Origin: Chryseobacterium gleum
GTDB taxonomy: Bacteria; Bacteroidota; Bacteroidia; Flavobacteriales_D; Crocinitomicaceae
Length of the DNA stretch: 40,650 nt
Direction of reading: 5' to 3'
NCBI GenBank assembly: GCA_945902775.1
Contig: CAMDMY010000021.1
Span: 1 to 40,650, forward strand
A model generated the notes under the pieces. It did no database searches, had not been told where the DNA came from, and saw only the letters and a program-made list of their open reading frames with translations. Each line of letters starts with the position of its first letter. The first letter of the stretch is position 1. The translations under genes and the position numbers were made by a program. Shown piece by piece: positions 12,096 to 23,672 of this stretch.

Positions 12096-13328
12096 ATGTC
12101 AGATAAAGTCGCAAAAGATTTAGAAGTTCAATTAAAATTAAAAGATTTTAAATTAAATTCTTTGTTAGAAATTACGACTGCCATTAACTCAAATCAGGAA
12201 GTGGATCAATTGATTCGAATTTTCGAATTTATTCTAAAAGAACAATTAGGCTTTGACAAATTCATTTTGTTTAATAAACAAGAAGATTGGATTTACTTAT
12301 TAAAAACTGGTTTCAAAGGCAAAATCAAAGATATTGAGGTAGAACGAGATCTATATAGATTCAAAGATATTACAGTAATTGAATCTTCCCCTTCTTCGAT
12401 TTTAAATGAATTTGATGTTGTCGTGCCTATCATACACAAAGATAAACCGTTAGGTTTTTTACTAATCGCTGGATTAGAACATCAAAAGTTAAAAGTTGCA
12501 GAAACAATGACCAATATGAGTTTTATTCAAACTCTAACAAACATAATTGTTGTAGCCATCGAAAACAAACGAATGGCAAAAGCAACAATCAAACAAGAAC
12601 GTTTAAAAAAGGAATTAGAAGTCGCTTCTGTGATGCAAAAACTGCTATTTCCATCCGATTTACCTTCAAATATCCGAATGGATATTTCTGCAAAATACAA
12701 ACCTAGACACGAAATTGGCGGAGATTATTACGATTTCATTCCACTTGGAAATGAAGAATACATTTTGTGTATGGCAGATGTTTCCGGAAAAGGAATTAGT
12801 GCCGCATTATTAATGGCTAATTTTCAAGCTACTATTAGAACTATTTTCAGGTATCAGCGATTTGAAATGGATTTCTTGTTGGAAGAATTGAACAAAAAAG
12901 TAATGAGAACAGCAAAAGGAGAAAAATTTATCACCTTTTTTATTGCTCATTATAATGCTGACACTCGAGTTCTAAAATATGTAAATGCTGGACATAATCA
13001 CCCGTTTATTACCAATGGTAAAAAAGTGGAGATGTTAAATCAAGGATGTATAGGTCTTGGCATGATGGACGAACTTCCATTTATCAATGTAGGAGAAAAA
13101 ATACTAGCACCAAATACAACACTAGTTCTATATACTGATGGAGTTGTAGAATTACAAAATATGACTGAAAATCAATTCGGGCTGGATAAATTGGTAAAAA
13201 TGATTCATAGCTATTACCCTCTGAAAATGGAAGATTTAAATAATTTAATCTTCTCTAAATTAGATGAATGGCGAGGTCCTTTAAAATTAGTAGATGATAC
13301 GGCTATTTTTAGTTGTCGATTCTTTTAA
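12096..13328 (+). CDS. GAF-domain SpoIIE/PP2C-type protein serine/threonine phosphatase
   Basis: The 410-residue protein has a leading helix, a GAF-like sensor region (about residues 25-160), a coiled linker (160-185, KQERLKKELEVASVMQ) and a SpoIIE-type PP2C phosphatase domain. Metal-binding residues are present: IGGDYYDF (Asp210), MADVSGKG (Asp228, Gly231), VNAGHNHP and LYTDGVVE. It should dephosphorylate a Ser/Thr phosphoprotein, classically an anti-sigma-factor antagonist, in response to a signal sensed by GAF. No such partner is encoded nearby. The stop lies only 11 bases before the adenylation gene at 13340, which suggests co-transcription with the dlt-like cassette. No membrane segment is seen. 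Confidence 0.9.
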   Translation: MSDKVAKDLEVQLKLKDFKLNSLLEITTAINSNQEVDQLIRIFEFILKEQLGFDKFILFNKQEDWIYLLKTGFKGKIKDIEVERDLYRFKDITVIESSPSSILNEFDVVVPIIHKDKPLGFLLIAGLEHQKLKVAETMTNMSFIQTLTNIIVVAIENKRMAKATIKQERLKKELEVASVMQKLLFPSDLPSNIRMDISAKYKPRHEIGGDYYDFIPLGNEEYILCMADVSGKGISAALLMANFQATIRTIFRYQRFEMDFLLEELNKKVMRTAKGEKFITFFIAHYNADTRVLKYVNAGHNHPFITNGKKVEMLNQGCIGLGMMDELPFINVGEKILAPNTTLVLYTDGVVELQNMTENQFGLDKLVKMIHSYYPLKMEDLNNLIFSKLDEWRGPLKLVDDTAIFSCRFF

Positions 13329-13339
13329 AGACATATAAA

Positions 13340-14836
13340 ATGATAAGAATAACGGATCAATTTATTGAGAATTGTTTTAAATATCCCAACAATAATGCTC
13401 TTTTCATTAATGAAAAATACTTCACTTATTCAGAATTATTAAATCTTACATTTTCAATTCTTTTAGATTTAAAAAAAGAAAATAATATTGATTCTAAAAT
13501 TGCTATTTATTGTAGTGATGATATAGAAACTTATTCTTCTATTTTAGCCGTTTCGATACTTGGAGCTTGTTATGTTCCGATAAATTCAAGAAATCCAATT
13601 CAACACTCATTAGAAATAATCGAATCAGCAGGAATTAGAACCATTTTACATTCGAATAAAATCGATATTCCACAAGAATTAACAAATTATAATTTACAAG
13701 CTGTTTTTATAGAAACTAGGAATTGTTCTTTCTCAAAACAAGACCTAGTCGCTACTATTCATCAGGAGAACGCTTATTTACTTCATACATCGGGTTCCAC
13801 AGGAAAACCTAAAGGCGTTAACATTAAACATATACAAGTTGAAGCATTTTTTGATTTTTTCACAGAAGAAAATGGATTTCATTTTTCCGAAAAAGATCGA
13901 TTTATACAACCATTTGAATTGACATTTGATGTTTCTGTATTTTGTTTATTTATGCCATTAAATCTTGGTGCCTGTTGTTATGTAGTGCCCAAAAATGGAT
14001 TGAAATTTTTAGAAACCATTCGATTATTGAAAGATCATTCGATTACCGTTTCTACGTTTGTTCCTACCATATTAAACCATATTGATAAGTACCTTAATGA
14101 ATTACAACTTCCTTCATTAAAATACAGTTTTTTCATTGGCGATAAATTGAGTCACAACTTAACGTGTAAATGGAAAAAATCGATACCTAATGCAGAAATC
14201 TTTAATTTTTACGGCCCAACAGAGGCAACGATTATGTGCTCTTATTATAAATGGGAAGAATATATAAGTAAAATTGAAAGTGTAAATGATATTGTTCCTA
14301 TTGGTAAATTATTTCCAAACTTAGAATATAAAATTATCAATGAAGAGAAAATTGCACAAAGTCAAGAAATAGGTGAATTATACATCTATGGAAATCAAGT
14401 AATTACATCTTATAATAATCTAACGAATGAAGATTCATTCTTGAATATTGAAGTCGAAAAAAAATATTACAAAACAGGGGATCTTGTGCATTTAAATGAA
14501 GATGGAAATTTAATTTATCATTCCAGAGTAGATAGACAAGTTAAAATTAATGGCTATCGAATTGAAATCAATGAAATTGAAGCTTGTATTAGAAGAAAAA
14601 TAAATTACCCATTTTGCGTAACAACCTTTAAAAATAAAAATCAACTTAATGAACTTGTTTTGTTTATTGAGAATAAGGTTGAGGTTGAGGATTTGATAAA
14701 CTTTTTGAAGCAGGAATTACCTAGTTATATGATACCTCAAACAGTAATTAATATTAAAAACATTCCTTACAATTCTAACCAAAAGATTGATTTAAAAAAA
14801 TTAAACGAAATTTATCTTTTGAATCAGTCCATTTGA
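13340..14836 (+). CDS. DltA-like AMP-forming adenylation enzyme (amino acid-carrier protein ligase)
   Basis: This 498-residue ANL-superfamily enzyme shows the core motifs: A3 TSGSTGKPKG (about 151-160), A4 FELTFDVSVF with Asp197 placed to bind a substrate amino group, A5 NFYGPTEAT, A7 YKTGDLV, A8 RVDRQVKINGYRIE and A10 NQKIDLKKL containing the catalytic Lys. It should activate a carboxylic acid with ATP and load it onto the carrier protein encoded next. The residue equivalent to the D-alanine-gating Cys of Bacillus DltA appears to be Ile266 (FFIGDKL), so the substrate may not be D-alanine. I chose the ATG at 13340; the frame is open upstream into the phosphatase gene. The size matches stand-alone DltA enzymes. 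Confidence 0.87.
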   Translation: MIRITDQFIENCFKYPNNNALFINEKYFTYSELLNLTFSILLDLKKENNIDSKIAIYCSDDIETYSSILAVSILGACYVPINSRNPIQHSLEIIESAGIRTILHSNKIDIPQELTNYNLQAVFIETRNCSFSKQDLVATIHQENAYLLHTSGSTGKPKGVNIKHIQVEAFFDFFTEENGFHFSEKDRFIQPFELTFDVSVFCLFMPLNLGACCYVVPKNGLKFLETIRLLKDHSITVSTFVPTILNHIDKYLNELQLPSLKYSFFIGDKLSHNLTCKWKKSIPNAEIFNFYGPTEATIMCSYYKWEEYISKIESVNDIVPIGKLFPNLEYKIINEEKIAQSQEIGELYIYGNQVITSYNNLTNEDSFLNIEVEKKYYKTGDLVHLNEDGNLIYHSRVDRQVKINGYRIEINEIEACIRRKINYPFCVTTFKNKNQLNELVLFIENKVEVEDLINFLKQELPSYMIPQTVINIKNIPYNSNQKIDLKKLNEIYLLNQSI

Positions 14837-14862
14837 TAATATTGCTTTAATTTTACACTGAT

Positions 14863-15102
14863 ATGGATAATCATTTATTAAATAGACTTCAAGCCGTTTT
14901 TAGAACATTTTTCAAAAATGAATCTATCCACTTAACGGAGACAACGACAACTGAAGAAATTGAGAATTGGGATTCTATCACTCATTTAAATCTAATCAAT
15001 GAAATCGAGAATCAATTTGGAATTTCATTTTCATTTGAAGAAATTTTAAAAATGAAAAATGTCGGAGAGTTAATCGAAATAATTAACAGCAAAGGAATCT
15101 AA
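14863..15102 (+). CDS. Acyl carrier protein of the dlt-like cassette
   Basis: The 79-residue protein is a phosphopantetheine carrier. The attachment motif is WDSITHLNLI, with Ser38 as the modified residue. Helix II and the acidic segment IENQFGISFSFEEI fit the ACP/DltC fold. It should receive the adenylated substrate as a thioester from the ligase encoded upstream and hand it to the membrane MBOAT protein. The gap to the ligase gene is 26 bases, and its TAA shares one base with the MBOAT ATG (TAATG), a sign of translational coupling. The cassette position argues against a fatty-acid-synthesis AcpP. Confidence 0.88.
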   Translation: MDNHLLNRLQAVFRTFFKNESIHLTETTTTEEIENWDSITHLNLINEIENQFGISFSFEEILKMKNVGELIEIINSKGI

Positions 15103-16502
15103 TGGAATTAACTTCTCTGTATTATCTTGTTTTTATTACTATTACACTGATTATATTTAATCTTATTTCAAATAAAATTAAACCAACCATTTTAATCATT
15201 TCAAGTTTACTTTTTATTGGGTTATTTTCTATTGACACACTCTTTGTTTTTCTTTTCGGAACACTAAGCACTCATTTTATAACTACTAAAATGATTCGTA
15301 TTTCAAACAGTCTTGAAAAAAAGATAGTTTTTAGAATTGGCTTAATCTTCAATATATCTCTTCTATTTATTTTTAAATTCATCGAATCGAATTATCATAT
15401 TGTATCTTTCTTTGATCCAAATAAAATGATTCTTTTTGTGGGGATTTCATTTTTCAGTTTACAAAATATTGCTTATTTAATAGATAATTATTACAACAGA
15501 ATTAAACCTTCTAATCTGAGTGAATTCATACTCTTCAATTCATTTTTTCCAAAATTTATAGCTGGGCCAATAACCAAAATACAAGACTTCAAATTTGATA
15601 AAGCTATTCCAATAAATTCAGTTCAGATTCAAAATGGCATTAATAGAATAGCCTTGGGACTTCTAAAAAAAATGGTCATTGCTGATCGAATCGCACCAAT
15701 TATCGCTCATAATTTTGAAGAAACAAATCCAACTTTTGGATTAACTAACTTAGTTGTTGCTTATTTATTTACCATCCAGTTGTATTTTGATTTCTCAGGT
15801 TATTCAGATATAGCAATAGGGAGTGCTAAATTATTTGGAATTCAACTTCCTGAAAACTTTAACTTTCCACTAAACTCAAAATCAATAAGTGAATTTTGGA
15901 GAAAATGGCACATAACGCTTTCCAGTTGGTTAACTAATTATGTATTTTATCCTATTTCATTTCGATATAGAAAATTGAAATATTGGGGTATCATTACAGC
16001 TTTAACAATTACCTTTTTACTTTCTGGTATTTGGCACGGAATAGGATTAACGTTTTTAATTTACGCACTCAGTCACGCTTTATATTTAATCATTGAAACA
16101 TTTATCAAAAAACCTAAAATTCTAATTTTAAATAGATTAACCTCATTAATTTCTATTTTTTTAACCTTCAATTTAGTCAGTTTAAGTTTTGTCTTTTTTC
16201 GTTCAACCTCAATTGAACAATCCTTTCATAAACTAAAAAGCATTTTCAGTTTTTCTTTTTTTCCGAAACAATTAGTAACCGATTTTACGCAATATATTGC
16301 CATAGGTGGCGAACAAGAAAACATTTTTAATCTATATGTTACTATCATTTTGACAGCGCTATTTTTAATATTTGAAAAAAGAATCTATAATCGTTTTAAT
16401 TCAAATCAAATAAACATAGTAGGACTAATTATACTTCTTCTAATCATTTCATTTTTTGGAATATTTGATGGAAGTAAAAACTTTATTTATTCTCAATTTT
16501 GA
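15102..16502 (+). CDS. MBOAT-family O-acyltransferase (DltB/AlgI-like)
   Basis: The 466-residue protein is largely hydrophobic, with about ten membrane helices and the MBOAT core: FDFSGYSDIAIGSAKLFGI (about 229-247), ENFNFPLNSKSISEFWRKWH with His270, and SGIWHG with the invariant catalytic His312. The FWRKWHITLSSWL segment is closer to AlgI/PatA than to Gram-positive DltB, but the neighbouring ligase and carrier protein argue for a DltB-like role: taking an aminoacyl or acyl group from the carrier and moving it across the inner membrane or onto an acceptor. It shares one base with both neighbouring genes (TAATG and TGATG), so the four genes form one unit. Confidence 0.9.
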   Translation: MELTSLYYLVFITITLIIFNLISNKIKPTILIISSLLFIGLFSIDTLFVFLFGTLSTHFITTKMIRISNSLEKKIVFRIGLIFNISLLFIFKFIESNYHIVSFFDPNKMILFVGISFFSLQNIAYLIDNYYNRIKPSNLSEFILFNSFFPKFIAGPITKIQDFKFDKAIPINSVQIQNGINRIALGLLKKMVIADRIAPIIAHNFEETNPTFGLTNLVVAYLFTIQLYFDFSGYSDIAIGSAKLFGIQLPENFNFPLNSKSISEFWRKWHITLSSWLTNYVFYPISFRYRKLKYWGIITALTITFLLSGIWHGIGLTFLIYALSHALYLIIETFIKKPKILILNRLTSLISIFLTFNLVSLSFVFFRSTSIEQSFHKLKSIFSFSFFPKQLVTDFTQYIAIGGEQENIFNLYVTIILTALFLIFEKRIYNRFNSNQINIVGLIILLLIISFFGIFDGSKNFIYSQF

Positions 16503-17416
16503 TGAAATTACTGAGGAAAACATTTCTTTCTATTACTTTTATTACCTTAACATTATGGGGGTCTGAAAAATTGTATGATTTATTTCTATCAAACAACCTT
16601 TACAGTAAGCAATCTTATATATTGAAAAGGAGAATAAATGCAGATATTATAATTACAGGAAACTGCGTTCCATTAACAACTCTAAATCCATCAATAATTG
16701 AAAAAGAAACAAAAGAAAAAACATATAATCTCGCTGAATATCATTCAAATATCACAGATAACTTTTTGACTTATTACCTCTATCTTAAAAACAATAGGGT
16801 CCCAAAAAAAATATTCATCTATATTAGTCCTGAAACTTTTGACCCATTATTTAACACCTTTAACACCTATCGTTTTTCATCTCTTATGAATGAGAGAAAA
16901 GTAAAAGAAATCGTTAAAAAAAATGACCCCTCTTATTTTTTCGCATCCTACATACCCTTTTTGAAATACGGATATTATAACAATCAAACACATTTTAAAG
17001 CAATTCAGGGGGCGAAACATCTATTTACCAATAAACAGCACATTCAATTTGAAAATGGATATTTACCTCTTAATGATAAGGAAATTGAATTTAAAACAGC
17101 CTACCCTATTGGTTACCAATTTAAATGGGATAGAAAAGAAGAATTACAACTGATAGAATTTATCCGATTCGTAAAATCAAAAGGAACCAACGTAATCTTA
17201 TTTGAATCACCATTTTATTCAAAATCAATATCAGACTTCCCAAACCGAAATTTAATTATTCAAAAAATAAAAAAACTAGCTAATAAGTTACATACCGATT
17301 ATGTTCAATTTCAAGATTCAACGTTGAAAGAAACAGATTTTTTAAATAATGTTACTTTAAGAGGAGAAGCTAAAATTCAATTCAATATTGAATTTTCCCA
17401 CCAAATTGTTAAATAA
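16502..17416 (+). CDS. DltD-like membrane-anchored protein with a degenerate SGNH site
   Basis: The 304-residue protein has one N-terminal membrane anchor (about residues 5-24) and an extracytoplasmic alpha/beta domain. It sits where dltD or an AlgJ/AlgX-like SGNH protein is expected. In such proteins block I is G-D/S-S and the last block is D-x-x-H. Here block I reads ITGNCVPL (Gly53-Asn54-Cys55), and the last block reads FLNNVTLRGEA, with Asn282 and Thr285 where Asp and His are expected. The domain may be non-catalytic, may use Cys, or may belong to another family; the similarity to DltD is by layout and context, not by strong identity. I use the ATG at 16502, which shares one base with the MBOAT stop. 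A TTG at 16499 is also in frame. Confidence 0.65.
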   Translation: MKLLRKTFLSITFITLTLWGSEKLYDLFLSNNLYSKQSYILKRRINADIIITGNCVPLTTLNPSIIEKETKEKTYNLAEYHSNITDNFLTYYLYLKNNRVPKKIFIYISPETFDPLFNTFNTYRFSSLMNERKVKEIVKKNDPSYFFASYIPFLKYGYYNNQTHFKAIQGAKHLFTNKQHIQFENGYLPLNDKEIEFKTAYPIGYQFKWDRKEELQLIEFIRFVKSKGTNVILFESPFYSKSISDFPNRNLIIQKIKKLANKLHTDYVQFQDSTLKETDFLNNVTLRGEAKIQFNIEFSHQIVK

Positions 17417-17419
17417 GAA

Positions 17420-20400
17420 TTAGCGAATAATATACATTTTTCCAAAATCCTTTGTGAAATAAGTATCTGCACCTGATTCCTTATGTTTAATATCTTCGCC
17501 ATTAATTTGAGCTTTCACTCTATATAGATAAACTCCATTGGCTAATTGATCTCCAAATTCATCCGTTCCATTCCATTCAAATTCGGTAATATTTCTACCT
17601 ATGTAAATCCTTCCTAATTCAGATTCCGTTATTTCTCTCACTACTTTTCCTGAAACGGTCATAATTTGAATAATAACATTCTCAGGCACCTGACTTCCTG
17701 TTAATGTAAAAACAAAACGAGTACTTGTACTAAATGGATTTGGATAATTCATTAAATAGGATATTGTCGATTCCTTAACAATTTCGAATGATATTTTATA
17801 TTGTAAATCCCCAGATAAATTACCAGACCTATCTGATCCTTGAATCATTAACGTATATTTCCCATTCTCTTCAAATAAAGCCGGATAAATAATTTTAAAT
17901 TTTTTAGAATTTAAATCAGCTGGTATCCATTGCATTACAGATTCCCCTTTACCATTAACAAAAGGTATTTTCCTTTGAACCCCTTTAGGATCTGTTAAAT
18001 AAATACCGAATCGAGTAGTGTCAGAAATATCATCCATCAAAAGAAAGGGATTATCATCTTTTAATGTAATAAATACTTGACTTTTAGGAGAAACGATATC
18101 TCCATTTAAAATGTGACGTCCATCAAAAGTTACATCTAAAATTGGATTGATGTCATCCCTCTTAACAACAAATGGAACTTGTAATAAATTATTTATATGT
18201 TCTTGTTCAGGCTGATCGGTAATAAATAAGCTACCGTTGATATAAGGATTAACTTCCATCCATAATGAATTGTTTCCTTCAATTCCTAGGGTTGAGAATT
18301 TTATTGTATCACGAATTGTTTCACTTACACCCAAAGGTTTTCTTCTAGAAATCGGAATAAAATGTTTAATATGAAATCTATCTTCAACCCAATAATTTAC
18401 TAATAATGAATCCATTGGCAAAGTGAAAATATTTCTTACATCAATAGCAAAAGTAACTTCTTCGCCTTCGTTCAGAGTGTCTTTTATTGGATTCCAAGTA
18501 TATTGATTGGTACCATCAATTGCTGCTTCTGGAACAGGATCAAAAATAACATTCCATCGATCAATTTGTGCAGGAGTTAAATTAGTTGAATCTAAATAAT
18601 CAGCACTTAAACTTATAAAAGGATAAAGTTTAGCGTCAATCTTAGCATTTAGATTTATTATTGAATCTTTATGGGTAAATAAAGTATCAATTTGATATTG
18701 TAAAGATTTATGTATATCATACACTTTAATATGCAAATTCGTACTATCTCCAATTAAAACATCTTTTGAATCTTGCTTCCAATGAACTGTACCCCAATTT
18801 GAAGATGGGCCGATTAGCGGAGCTGCTTCATTTCCAAAATAAAATCGTTTATCCATCTTAGCTTCTAAAACAACTGTTTCTCCTGCTGTTTGAGCATATT
18901 CTTCAACAACACTATTTAAATCACCTTTTTTAAAGAAAAATGAAAATGAATAATTATTTCTACCTGGTCTTATACTATCAGATCCTAACGAGGAAAACAT
19001 AGAATATAAACTAGGAGCATACGTATCCCATGCATTAAAATTTGCTCCGAATGAAGTGTATATCAAGACATAATTACTGTCTGGTATTTTATTCATCACC
19101 ATATCTTGTAAAGCATTAAGATAAGTAGAAGACGTTTGGGGAAAACTGAAAAAACCAATAGGTCTAGATCTGCATGCTCCGTTATCATTTGAATTACCAT
19201 AATTCCTATTCAAATTTGAACCAGTTGGAACATATCTAGTACTCCATGCATCTAAAGTGATTGCGTCAAAAACTACAACATTTAAAGTCGGTGTAGGACG
19301 ATTACAAACCCCATAATCTAAAATTTGACCATTAATCTTGGTTTCATTTAAAACTCCTGGCCCAGGTAAAACAACAGATTTTAAACTATCTTGAGTGTCC
19401 AATACAAATTCTCTTTCTCTTAGTGCTCTATTATAAAATAAATTTGAAAAACTATTTTTCTTAAATTGAAAAAAGTGATCTTGTCCCCAACCCGACTTTC
19501 CTTTAATATATTGAAAAGAACGTTCACGCCAATCAGGTAAAGAAGATTCTAAAGCTACTCTCCAAAAATAAACAGTACTATCCATACATATTAGTGGTGC
19601 ATTCTGATTTGTTGATGACAATTTCCAATCATTTGGAAAAACTTCTTTTACACCGCCCAAACCAGTTACTGTTGCAACTCTCAGAAAAGGACTATTAAAA
19701 AGATCGGTTGTGTCGATTTCAAACCTATAATTAGCTAAAGGAGCAATTGGATTAATCGTAGAAGCTTTCAAAACAACACTATCACTTGGAACAATCGCAA
19801 AGTCAGTTGGAATGATAGGTAAAACACCATCTATATTAACAAAAAGAATTGTTGATACTTTATTGTTATTGATTTCATCAAATTGTTCAGGAATATCTGA
19901 AGGAATATCAACTGAAACTTCAATGTTATTTATACCTACGCCAATATTAGGTTGTAAAGGAAATTTAAAAATTATAGTATCCTTATAATTCAATTTTGGC
20001 ACTTGCAGAAGAAAAATTGAATCAACAGAAGTCAATGGGAAATCGCGTTTAATTTCAATATTAAATGTATCCGTTATTGATTTTCCTAAATTTGTAAGAA
20101 CAATATGAATTTCAATAGAATCTACTGATAAATCAAAGTTTTTAGGAGTAAACCAAACTTTATCAGTAGTTATTTCAATTTCAGGTTTATCATGCCAATT
20201 TAATTTAATTAGTGGATCACCATTTAAATTCATTTGAGTCGCTGCAGCTTCAATTAAAATGCCTGAATATCCGTTAATGTCAATATTTTCGATAGTTGAT
20301 TTAATTTGATCACTTAATGTTTTACCGTAATTCAAAGTACTGAATTGAGAGTATAAAGCAGTTGAAAATTGACCTAAAGGTTGATCAATACCTTCAGATA

Positions 20401-22576
20401 CTGATCCAATAAAAGCAATTGCCCCGCCATCTTTCACGTTAACAAAATTGGTTGTTGCAATTGATAGATTAGATAATGAAAACATATTTCCTGCATCACA
20501 AGAGTTAGAAATTACAACTGGATATTTTCCTTTATTATACCAATTATTAGGGTCATCAATGTTAATCTCAAATCCTACCTGTGAGGAATGTCCAAAGAAA
20601 TTTATAATAGAAACTCCATTTCTAATTCTATCCGTTACACCTCCTAAAACCTGAGGGTCAAAAGGAGCTGAAGTACTTTTGTAAATTTTATATACATTCC
20701 CTCCAAAATTTGCATTTTCTATAGTCATTTCCATAGAGTTTAGAAAACCCTGAATCGTTGATTGTTGATAGCTATCTCTTCCCCCTCCAAAATGAATAAT
20801 TTGTTTTTGCCAATCTTTTTCTGAACTTGAATAAATAGAAGTTTGATTTTGATTTAAATCATACTCTTTAATTTTATTTAAATAATTCTCCAACTGAGCA
20901 TTAGTTGAAACAGCTATTCTTCCAGTTGGAATTAAAGGTGAAATTTTACCATGTTTCAAATCAGCCGTAATTGCAGCATCACTTGCAGGTTGACCAAAAG
21001 TAGGTACTAAATTAGACGCATAACTTGTGGAATTTGTTCTAGAACCTGGAGTTCCAAATGGAAATCCAATATCCGCATTTACCACTCCTTTTCCAACTAA
21101 AAATAAGCCTACAGGCTTAATAGTTGACTTATTATATATAAAAAAAGAAAAGCGTCGTATACCATTAATGTGCTTATTTATTCCGCCTCCGAATTGGAGA
21201 TACAAATCATCAATATTTACTAAAATTGAATTATAATTTCCACCTGCAATAGATTTTCTGTACAAATGATATTCATTAGCTTGATTGGATAAAACAGGTG
21301 GATAAATCATTAATAATGCTGCTTCAGAATTTATTGAAGAATAATCAACAAAAGCACCTGTCGCATTTACAGCTTTTAAACTACTAACAGTTAATACGTT
21401 AGAAAAATCTTGAAGAATAACTTTTTGCGAACTACCATCAAGACTATTAGAAATAAGTGAAGAGTAGCCTCCATTAAATGAAGTTAATGAACCTTTTTTA
21501 GCAGTATTCTTATCAAATACAAATAGAATAGGGTTATTTACTATTAAATTTGAAAAATCAATTCTAATATTGGATTGAAAAGTATTGTTTTTAATAAAAA
21601 AACTGGCATTATTTGCACCATTAAATGTTGGGATTTTAGGATAAATAATTGACCAATAATTCAATGATTGATAATCTGTTAATGCACCTTGATCATCTAT
21701 AATTGACCATTTTACAGGTGTACTTCCATTGGTTAAAAGGTTTGATGAAAAAGTTGTATTGACATAAGCATAATCATAATCAACATAAATTTGATCAAAT
21801 AACACAGAGCCGCTAGAACCAATTTTCCATCTTAAATGGTGGTTTCCATTACCTGTATAATCTGCTTCAGAACTAGTCGTTGAAATCCCTTTAAATTCAC
21901 ATGGTGGAGCATCAATTCCCAAATAGGGATCTGTTGTATTAGCAGATAAATTCAAAGTAAATTCACCTGAACCATTTACTCCGTTCTGAGGTGGATAACC
22001 AAATCCTTCCCCTCCTTTATAAAAAGAACTAGATGCTAAAGAATTTCTCCATGCTCCTTCGTTGTAATATCCATTGTAAGAAAACTCTAATTTTTGAAGA
22101 ATAAAATTAGAGGGCGTGTAATTAGAAAAATCAGTTGAAAACTCCTCTATAAATCTTAAATTAGAATTAGAGGTATTCCAGGTGAAAAAATAATTTATTG
22201 TATCATTAAATAAACTATATGCTGGATTTCCAACCCAAGTTGAATCTTCATATAAAGTTGAATCTAACCACGAATCATTTTTCTCAGCATAAAATAAAAT
22301 ATAATCTCCTGGATCTATTTTTGAATCTCCACCGTCATTTATATACAGAGGCACTTCCCTTTCTCTTCCATATAATTGAATATTATTTGAAGAAAATGTT
22401 GTTATAGGGATACCCGAATTTGCAAGGGCATTATAATCAATTTTATACACCCCGGTTCTATATATTCCAAACGAATAATATTTTTGGCTGTAATTAATCC
22501 ATTCATTTCCAAATTTTTGACAATATAGAAAATTCGAATTTAGTATAAGAATAAAAAAAAGAAGTAGCTTTTTCAT
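17420..22576 (-). CDS. PorU2-like type IX secretion sortase (gingipain C25 family)
   Basis: This 1718-residue protein has a signal peptide (1-19), an N-terminal beta-rich propeptide-like region and a C25 peptidase domain. Catalytic candidates are His663 in FFGHSSQVG and Cys693 in VISNSCDAGNMF, followed by GGAIAFIGSVSEGI. Long Ig-like and adhesion-type domains come next. The C-terminus is FlgD/T9SS-like (YPNPFSTSTRFVF; NGVYLYRV). PorU removes the C-terminal signal of type IX cargo at the cell surface and attaches the cargo to a lipopolysaccharide-type anchor. This protein is much longer than classical PorU (about 1100-1300 residues) and fits the group called PorU2. It is one base from the porV2-like gene upstream, consistent with a PorU-PorV-like pair. 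It ends 3 bases from the convergent DltD-like gene. Confidence 0.85.
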   Translation of the reverse strand: MKKLLLFFILILNSNFLYCQKFGNEWINYSQKYYSFGIYRTGVYKIDYNALANSGIPITTFSSNNIQLYGREREVPLYINDGGDSKIDPGDYILFYAEKNDSWLDSTLYEDSTWVGNPAYSLFNDTINYFFTWNTSNSNLRFIEEFSTDFSNYTPSNFILQKLEFSYNGYYNEGAWRNSLASSSFYKGGEGFGYPPQNGVNGSGEFTLNLSANTTDPYLGIDAPPCEFKGISTTSSEADYTGNGNHHLRWKIGSSGSVLFDQIYVDYDYAYVNTTFSSNLLTNGSTPVKWSIIDDQGALTDYQSLNYWSIIYPKIPTFNGANNASFFIKNNTFQSNIRIDFSNLIVNNPILFVFDKNTAKKGSLTSFNGGYSSLISNSLDGSSQKVILQDFSNVLTVSSLKAVNATGAFVDYSSINSEAALLMIYPPVLSNQANEYHLYRKSIAGGNYNSILVNIDDLYLQFGGGINKHINGIRRFSFFIYNKSTIKPVGLFLVGKGVVNADIGFPFGTPGSRTNSTSYASNLVPTFGQPASDAAITADLKHGKISPLIPTGRIAVSTNAQLENYLNKIKEYDLNQNQTSIYSSSEKDWQKQIIHFGGGRDSYQQSTIQGFLNSMEMTIENANFGGNVYKIYKSTSAPFDPQVLGGVTDRIRNGVSIINFFGHSSQVGFEINIDDPNNWYNKGKYPVVISNSCDAGNMFSLSNLSIATTNFVNVKDGGAIAFIGSVSEGIDQPLGQFSTALYSQFSTLNYGKTLSDQIKSTIENIDINGYSGILIEAAATQMNLNGDPLIKLNWHDKPEIEITTDKVWFTPKNFDLSVDSIEIHIVLTNLGKSITDTFNIEIKRDFPLTSVDSIFLLQVPKLNYKDTIIFKFPLQPNIGVGINNIEVSVDIPSDIPEQFDEINNNKVSTILFVNIDGVLPIIPTDFAIVPSDSVVLKASTINPIAPLANYRFEIDTTDLFNSPFLRVATVTGLGGVKEVFPNDWKLSSTNQNAPLICMDSTVYFWRVALESSLPDWRERSFQYIKGKSGWGQDHFFQFKKNSFSNLFYNRALREREFVLDTQDSLKSVVLPGPGVLNETKINGQILDYGVCNRPTPTLNVVVFDAITLDAWSTRYVPTGSNLNRNYGNSNDNGACRSRPIGFFSFPQTSSTYLNALQDMVMNKIPDSNYVLIYTSFGANFNAWDTYAPSLYSMFSSLGSDSIRPGRNNYSFSFFFKKGDLNSVVEEYAQTAGETVVLEAKMDKRFYFGNEAAPLIGPSSNWGTVHWKQDSKDVLIGDSTNLHIKVYDIHKSLQYQIDTLFTHKDSIINLNAKIDAKLYPFISLSADYLDSTNLTPAQIDRWNVIFDPVPEAAIDGTNQYTWNPIKDTLNEGEEVTFAIDVRNIFTLPMDSLLVNYWVEDRFHIKHFIPISRRKPLGVSETIRDTIKFSTLGIEGNNSLWMEVNPYINGSLFITDQPEQEHINNLLQVPFVVKRDDINPILDVTFDGRHILNGDIVSPKSQVFITLKDDNPFLLMDDISDTTRFGIYLTDPKGVQRKIPFVNGKGESVMQWIPADLNSKKFKIIYPALFEENGKYTLMIQGSDRSGNLSGDLQYKISFEIVKESTISYLMNYPNPFSTSTRFVFTLTGSQVPENVIIQIMTVSGKVVREITESELGRIYIGRNITEFEWNGTDEFGDQLANGVYLYRVKAQINGEDIKHKESGADTYFTKDFGKMYIIR

Positions 22577-22577
22577 C

Positions 22578-23672
22578 CTATTTTGGTTTATTTAATTTTA
22601 TTCTAATCGAAATTATGTGTGAATATAGAGAAGCTGAAACACTTCCGATATTTGTAAATGCATAATCAAGATAGAAATTTTTTATGTTTAATCCAAGTCC
22701 AATATTCGGTTGAAAATTCAACTTTTTCGAATCATCATATTGTTTAACATATTGAAAATTAGAAATCCCCCCTCTAATAGCAACAAAATTTTTAAATCCA
22801 AACTCAATTCCTAGATGAGGGTCAAAAGAAAATAAACGAGATTCAATTAATGTATTTCTTCTTCCATCTGAAGTAATATCAAGATTTATTTCGCTTGCTG
22901 CATAAATACCTTTTTTTCCCAAATTAAATTTACCATATGAAGCCAAAATAAATCGAGGTAATGTAATCTCTAATCCATTTGCAGGAATTGTGTTGCCTGT
23001 CTTAACAAATACCTCTTGAGTTTTAGAGTCTAAATTAAAAACCCAAGCATTAAATGTTGAAGAAACGTCACGAGCCATCAAACCAAACTTGTAGTTCTTA
23101 TAAAAATATTGCGCACCTGCGTCAAGTCCAAAGCCCCATGATTTTGCAAAATCTCCAACCTTTCGATGAATAACTTTAAAATTACCACCTAGACTTAAGC
23201 CCTTAATCTTCATTTTTCGAGCATATGAAAATAAAAAACCATAATCCGCAGCAGTAAAAGTAGAAATCCTTGAATAATCTACATTCCCTTGTTGATCAAT
23301 CAATTGAGTCGTATTTGGTATATCATCAACAGCAAATCTAATTGCCGAAAAACCAACCGTACTAATTTTGTCAATAGCATGGGCTAAACCTAAATAATCA
23401 TATTTAGCTATACCTGCAAAATATTCTGAATGCATTAAACTAACATCTAACCATTTATTTACTTGAGTCAATCCAGCAGGATTCCAATATCCCGAATTTA
23501 CATTTGAAGTTTGAGCAACAACAGCATTCCCAAGACCTAGCGCATCAGCACCAACACCAATTGCTAAAAATTCATTTGAATATTTAGGGGCAACCTTATC
23601 TGATTGAGATAAAACACTAAAATTTATAGAAATCAACACAAAAATGAATGTTGAAAGAAAAATTAATCGCAT
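22578..23672 (-). CDS. PorV2-like outer-membrane barrel protein (PorV/PorQ family)
   Basis: The 364-residue product has a signal peptide (about 1-22, ending SVLSQS) and a FadL-like beta barrel with the PorV/PorQ opening GVGADALGLGNAVVAQTSNVNSGYWNPAGL (residues about 38-67). Alternating hydrophobic strands continue to a C-terminal strand. PorV shuttles type IX cargo to PorU and forms a complex with it; this pairing with a long PorU2 suggests a second, specialised attachment complex. It is the first gene of the pair, with a 1-base gap to the sortase gene. It is divergent from pssA across 141 AT-rich bases, with no obvious -7 box on the minus strand. Confidence 0.85.
   Translation of the reverse strand: MRLIFLSTFIFVLISINFSVLSQSDKVAPKYSNEFLAIGVGADALGLGNAVVAQTSNVNSGYWNPAGLTQVNKWLDVSLMHSEYFAGIAKYDYLGLAHAIDKISTVGFSAIRFAVDDIPNTTQLIDQQGNVDYSRISTFTAADYGFLFSYARKMKIKGLSLGGNFKVIHRKVGDFAKSWGFGLDAGAQYFYKNYKFGLMARDVSSTFNAWVFNLDSKTQEVFVKTGNTIPANGLEITLPRFILASYGKFNLGKKGIYAASEINLDITSDGRRNTLIESRLFSFDPHLGIEFGFKNFVAIRGGISNFQYVKQYDDSKKLNFQPNIGLGLNIKNFYLDYAFTNIGSVSASLYSHIISIRIKLNKPK

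Follow-up and report, generated by a model that had tools for sequence, protein, structure and literature searches.

What does a dlt-like gene cassette do in a Bacteroidota genome that has a genuine dlt operon elsewhere? The cassette lies in a 40,650-nucleotide stretch of DNA (the window), which is contig C21 of a 3.09 Mb genome assembled in 168 contigs (99.6% complete, 4% contamination) and assigned to Chryseobacterium gleum. The initial annotation described four genes on the forward strand at 13340-17416, in the order A-C-B-D (adenylation enzyme, carrier, MBOAT acyltransferase, DltD-like protein) and with 1-base overlaps. The coordinates, Pfam matches and a predicted fold bear this out. The stop codon of the carrier gene overlaps the ATG of the MBOAT gene by 1 base, and the junction between the MBOAT and DltD-like genes (TGATG) also has a 1-base overlap. 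The G+C content of the cassette is 26.9%, versus about 30% in its flanks. Its features are as follows.

13340-14836, forward strand: stand-alone adenylation (A) enzyme, 498 amino acids (aa); Pfam PF00501 AMP-binding, 2.7e-50
14863-15102, forward strand: acyl or aminoacyl carrier protein, 79 aa, attachment site WDSI; Pfam PF00550 PP-binding, 5.5e-6
14974-14976, forward strand: codon of carrier Ser38, the phosphopantetheine site in the DSI motif, conserved in relatives
15102-16502, forward strand: MBOAT acyltransferase, 466 aa, invariant WHG (His312); Pfam PF03062, 2.8e-27
16482-16499, forward strand: fused acyl-shuttle hexapeptide FIYSQF (motif FXYXXF) at the MBOAT C-terminus, from sequence
16488-16490, forward strand: codon of MBOAT Tyr463 within FIYSQF, from sequence
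16502-17416, forward strand: membrane-anchored protein of SGNH fold (DltD/PatB-like), 304 aa, in which Cys replaces the nucleophile Ser; AlphaFold and Foldseek
16664-16666, forward strand: codon of Cys55 of the SGNH-fold protein (GNCVP), from sequence

The cassette is a real, conserved variant that joins a putatively carrier-fed MBOAT, a fused shuttle and a Cys-type SGNH partner. It is undescribed as far as the literature searched shows, a search that found no description of this combination. We think it probable that the cassette is a cell-envelope aminoacylation relay, a hybrid of Dlt and PatAB-type MBOAT-SGNH systems that is known here from its genes and a predicted fold.

The shuttle peptide is one part of this case. 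The hexapeptide FXYXXF is carried on DltX in Dlt, whereas in PatA-type systems it is joined to the C-terminus of the MBOAT, and these PatA-type MBOAT-SGNH systems have been described as acyl-coenzyme A (CoA) users without a carrier protein (PMC12148441). FXYXXF is fused to the MBOAT in all full-length relatives of the window protein. No DltX-like small open reading frame (ORF) with this motif is present in the window cassette, whereas the dlt operon on contig C33 of the same genome has one. Because a carrier and an A enzyme occur here with a fused-shuttle MBOAT, the cassette is a hybrid of two known layouts. The window MBOAT is about 70 residues longer than the DltB of its own genome, and the extra stretch contains two hydrophobic segments, in line with the additional helices that PatAB/AlgI-type MBOATs have and DltB lacks. 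Nine MBOAT genes are found in this genome; besides that of the cassette, seven encode proteins with FIYFQF, FIYFRF or FVYFLY at the end, and DltB does not have the motif. A residue other than Phe occupies shuttle position 4 in 19 of 21 carrier-linked MBOATs versus 11 of 57 others (Fisher p = 1e-8, ignoring relatedness and loci with short flanks). As a general marker of carrier use this feature was rejected, for the PatA of Neisseria (FIYANF), a CoA user, is also non-Phe at this position.

The fourth protein has no match in Pfam or NCBIfam, and a sequence search of the PDB returned nothing significant. Its AlphaFold model (11 sequences) is an SGNH fold with an N-terminal helix (mean predicted local distance difference test score, pLDDT, of 90.4). 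The best Foldseek match to this model is DltD (7dxm, E = 9.5e-7), and structural alignment gives TesA (Z = 15.9), PatB (Z = 13.1) and DltD (3bma, Z = 12.9). The nucleophile position, in a G-x-C motif, is Cys in 28 of 28 relatives, in which Asn76 and Glu111 are also invariant. Cys55, Asn282 and Thr285 occupy the Ser, Asp and His catalytic positions. The superposition with TesA places model residue 46 on TesA residue 1. A gapless count from the ends of this alignment puts Cys55 on Ser10 and Thr285 on His157, catalytic residues of TesA, and it agrees with the sequence alignment. The block V Asp-x-x-His is not kept in the cassette proteins of these 28 relatives, and a His stands at the triad His position in only three of them, which are closely related. 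Canonical MBOAT partners in related genomes have G-S/N-S, plus H-L-N/Q near the C-terminus. An invariant Cys in place of the last-step Ser points to a different final chemistry.

The A enzyme resembles amino acid-activating enzymes in general more than it does DltA. It scores 273.6 bits with a generic amino-acid adenylation model versus 232-240 bits with DltA models. Structure 4oxi, presumably the glycine enzyme AlmE, likewise scores above DltA structures (274 versus 211 bits). The A enzyme retains the equivalents of Asp235 and Lys517 (GrsA numbering), which fits an alpha-amino acid as substrate. The pocket code is DVFTFIFIMK in the window, DVFS(F/I)SFIVK in relatives from family f32 and DLYVLCTVAK in the DltA of the same genome. 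Its substrate is likely a small alpha-amino acid, a small side chain being suggested because the pocket residues are bulky. Assignment of one amino acid from the pocket gave no confident match.

The four-gene set is no chance cluster, and the same contiguous A-C-B-D block occurs in other genomes and other families of Bacteroidia. The initial annotation had asked whether the four genes stay together, and this comparison supports its aminoacylation reading. Complete blocks are present in the window and in genomes G066, G069, G009, G600, G755, G474, G542, G744, G757, G660 and G058; in the last of these an ATPase-like ORF (L020 8466-9605) sits between the A and carrier genes. In G045, the nearest relative of the window, the cassette is split between two contig edges, one with the A gene and part of the C gene and the other with B and D; its neighbours there are again the phosphatase and PorU2 genes known from the window. 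Reordered or reduced versions also occur, with B-D-A in G376 and C-B-D or B-D in family f24, and both carrier-less and A-less versions are found among relatives. G408 and G409 have the MBOAT, the Cys protein and the A enzyme at separate loci. The surroundings differ from lineage to lineage, and therefore the four genes travel as a unit.

A class-wide survey found 16 genomes besides the window's own that carry a cassette-type MBOAT, defined by a hidden Markov model score of at least 365 bits (the next scores down are at 341), and the Cys protein is encoded in 16 of 16. These genomes belong to families f24, f32, f42, f49 and f87, and the window's own family is f1. Carriers of the Cys protein are mostly metagenome-assembled genomes of Flavobacteriia/Flavobacteriales, one of them named Fluviicola sp. 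A phylum-wide search for the Cys protein matched 1 of 395. Because a control search recovered it in 16 of 16 known carriers, the search is sensitive and the protein family patchy. Within the window's own family, an A-domain search matched 9 of 150 genomes, 7 of the 9 in the same genus with the genome studied here included, and by these matches the distribution of the cassette in the family is patchy. At two MBOAT loci (L118 and L132) the A gene is replaced by an upstream gene whose product resembles an FkbH-type HAD protein, a carrier loader, which suggests that the loading modules are exchangeable. A short Cys-protein match with an in-frame stop (G029:C6:40031-40213) may be a decayed copy. 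In two genomes, lone Cys proteins follow the same two secreted-protein genes, at a distance from the MBOAT that belongs to them (L065 8428-10951 and L067 2917-5376).

From these features we infer a five-step relay. The A enzyme would adenylate a small alpha-amino acid with ATP, as its family and conserved residues suggest, and load it as a thioester on the phosphopantetheine of carrier Ser38. At the cytoplasmic face, the MBOAT would move the aminoacyl group from the carrier to its own Tyr463 in FIYSQF, which would substitute for DltX; the motif is present in the protein, and the chemistry is patterned on DltB/DltX and PatA. The shuttle peptide would then hand the group to the anchored SGNH-fold protein, where Cys55, whose position is given by sequence and fold, could become aminoacylated as a thioester. 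In a last and speculative step, an acceptor in the periplasm or outer envelope may receive the group from this thioester. The accepting group is perhaps an amine and not a hydroxyl, given the higher reactivity of thioesters and the loss of the Asp-His pair. No acceptor gene lies next to the cassette.

The relay logic of Dlt is retained as the best reading of what the initial annotation called dlt-like aminoacylation. However, a genuine dlt operon is found on contig C33 (locus L031), and therefore the window cassette is a distinct system. The C33 operon has the following genes.

L031 5008-5229: dltC
L031 5226-6395: dltD
L031 6398-6553: dltX, 51 aa, ending in NFIYQQF
L031 6553-7743: dltB
L031 7759-9237: dltA

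The NCBIfam scores of the C33 proteins are 417-429 bits for DltA, 262.6 for DltB and 140 for DltD, versus 232-240, 200.4 and no match in the window. The C33 proteins also score below the curated cutoffs (560 and 476 for the DltA models, 375 for DltB), and the argument consequently depends on how the scores compare, on gene content and on DltX. Window and C33 proteins share 28-32% identity. The DltD model matches 3 of 12 genomes in the genus, a set that differs from the cassette carriers. The C33 DltB and those of relatives L101 and L102 read W-N-G where the window MBOAT has W-H-G with its conserved His.

The same four functions as in the cassette would be found in an ordinary dlt operon serving to D-alanylate an envelope polymer. 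The DltB model is also the MBOAT's only NCBIfam match, and DltA is the best equivalog-level match of the A enzyme. These similarities are set against a better-scoring operon with DltX elsewhere in the genome, a fused shuttle, a lost Ser triad and an A pocket unlike that of the genome's own DltA. Sequence tests have already weakened this explanation, and we consider it quite improbable. The description of the cassette as complete and dlt-like has to be amended on similar grounds: the shuttle is fused to the MBOAT, the Ser-His-Asp triad is lost together with the appearance of an invariant Cys and the A enzyme scores lower on DltA models. Another explanation is that the product is a small diffusible or lipid-linked aminoacyl compound, a secondary metabolite, and that the envelope is not modified. 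A stand-alone A enzyme with a carrier is typical of pathways like those of nonribosomal peptide synthetases (NRPSs), and the best PDB matches of the A enzyme are NRPS A domains. However, no other biosynthetic genes occur in the contexts read, and an MBOAT with a C-terminal shuttle and an SGNH-fold partner is a signature of envelope acylation (PMC12148441), which leaves a secondary metabolite very unlikely.

The Cys protein could also be a pseudo-enzyme or docking subunit. A membrane lipid or other acceptor would then receive the aminoacyl group straight from the MBOAT, and Cys55 would be structural or redox-active. Loss of the triad His and Asp is compatible with such a role, as is the encoding of the Cys protein away from the MBOAT in some genomes. 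But the nucleophile position is Cys without exception, and because the window protein has no other Cys, an internal disulfide partner is lacking. The retained shuttle peptide would also have no obvious purpose absent a subunit to receive its cargo. This explanation is unlikely, though it deserves some weight. Several observations count against the envelope aminoacylation relay itself. The Cys protein might be non-catalytic, since it has no His/Asp pair. Several relatives have no A gene close by, and at L118 a gene resembling an FkbH-type loader takes its place, so that in some systems the acyl group may be something other than an amino acid. The structure model of the MBOAT was poor (pLDDT of 57) and was set aside.

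The initial annotation saw no glycosyltransferase or polymer gene nearby, which holds within the immediate surroundings read. It also proposed a comparison of neighbourhoods for co-conserved acceptor genes. This comparison yielded no acceptor gene and only one recurrent neighbour from outside the cassette, a subtilase with a type IX secretion sorting domain wherever it was scanned complete. The subtilase adjoins the cassette in five f32 genomes, lies near it in two f49 genomes and is beside the A gene in G408 and G409. Another protein with a type IX sorting domain is encoded divergently from the A gene in G069. The neighbouring features are these.

L134 5382-7511: subtilase with a type IX sorting domain, whose homologues stay near the cassette, or near the A gene even when the cassette is dispersed
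Window 17420-23672: PorU2 (640.8 bits, cutoff 450) and PorV2 (485.6 bits, cutoff 325), convergent with the cassette
Window 12096-13328: SpoIIE/PP2C-type phosphatase

PorU2 and PorV2 are a putative alternative type IX sorting pair, and their stop and that of the cassette are 3 bases apart. We rejected this pair as a functional partner. PorU2 is above its cutoff in 65 of 70 genomes, with or without a cassette, and elsewhere it lies on other contigs. Because it is nearly universal, its adjacency to the cassette is not diagnostic. The phosphatase, which ends 11 bases before the A gene, was likewise rejected as part of the system, as this arrangement occurs only in the window and G045 and other cassettes are without it.

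Type IX cargo of P. gingivalis and T. forsythia is attached to a seryl or glycyl sugar, and addition of the amino acid is assigned to VimA (PMC7468200). A search of the window's genome for a VimA-like aminoacyltransferase gave a single weak 25.6-bit match, which is uninformative. The cassette's position against PorU2/PorV2 and the location of the A gene beside type IX cargo elsewhere hint at a related role. The Cys-based SGNH transferase would pass a periplasmic aminoacyl thioester to an amine of an envelope glycan, and the amino acid would be the residue at which PorU or PorU2 attaches surface proteins. We offer this as a long shot.

The cassette would work like Dlt, yet it fails defining features of both the Dlt and PatAB types. 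The published division is between carrier-fed systems with a separate shuttle (Dlt) and CoA-fed systems with a fused shuttle, and the cassette joins a carrier with a fused shuttle. Because aminoacylation alters surface charge, its target could matter for the tolerance of Bacteroidota to antimicrobial peptides or for the display of their surface proteins. The presence of two aminoacylation systems within one small genome makes a clean comparison possible.

The Dlt systems of Firmicutes, which attach D-alanine to teichoic acids, and the C33 operon share with the cassette an A enzyme, a carrier, an MBOAT, an anchored SGNH-fold protein and the aminoacyl shuttle logic. The window differs from them in the absence of a separate DltX, a Cys for Ser without the triad, an A pocket that is not DltA-like and the gene order A-C-B-D. 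PatA/PatB of peptidoglycan O-acetylation and other fused-FXYXXF pairs (PMC12148441) have in common with it an MBOAT with a C-terminal shuttle and a separate SGNH-fold partner. In contrast to these described acyl-CoA users, the window has an A enzyme and a carrier gene, and its partner has Cys rather than Ser. AlmEFG, which glycylates lipopolysaccharide in Vibrio cholerae (PMC3783018), likewise uses an A enzyme and a carrier in a Gram-negative organism, but AlmG is an LPLAT-type transferase where the window has an MBOAT and SGNH-fold pair. The dra locus of Bordetella pertussis, which places D-alanine on an outer membrane component, is also a Gram-negative envelope aminoacylation system (cited in PMC4448142). 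VimA (PMC7468200) puts an amino acid on an envelope glycan in Bacteroidota, but it is a predicted N-acyltransferase of linking-sugar synthesis that has no MBOAT or carrier, and any link between it and the cassette is hypothetical.

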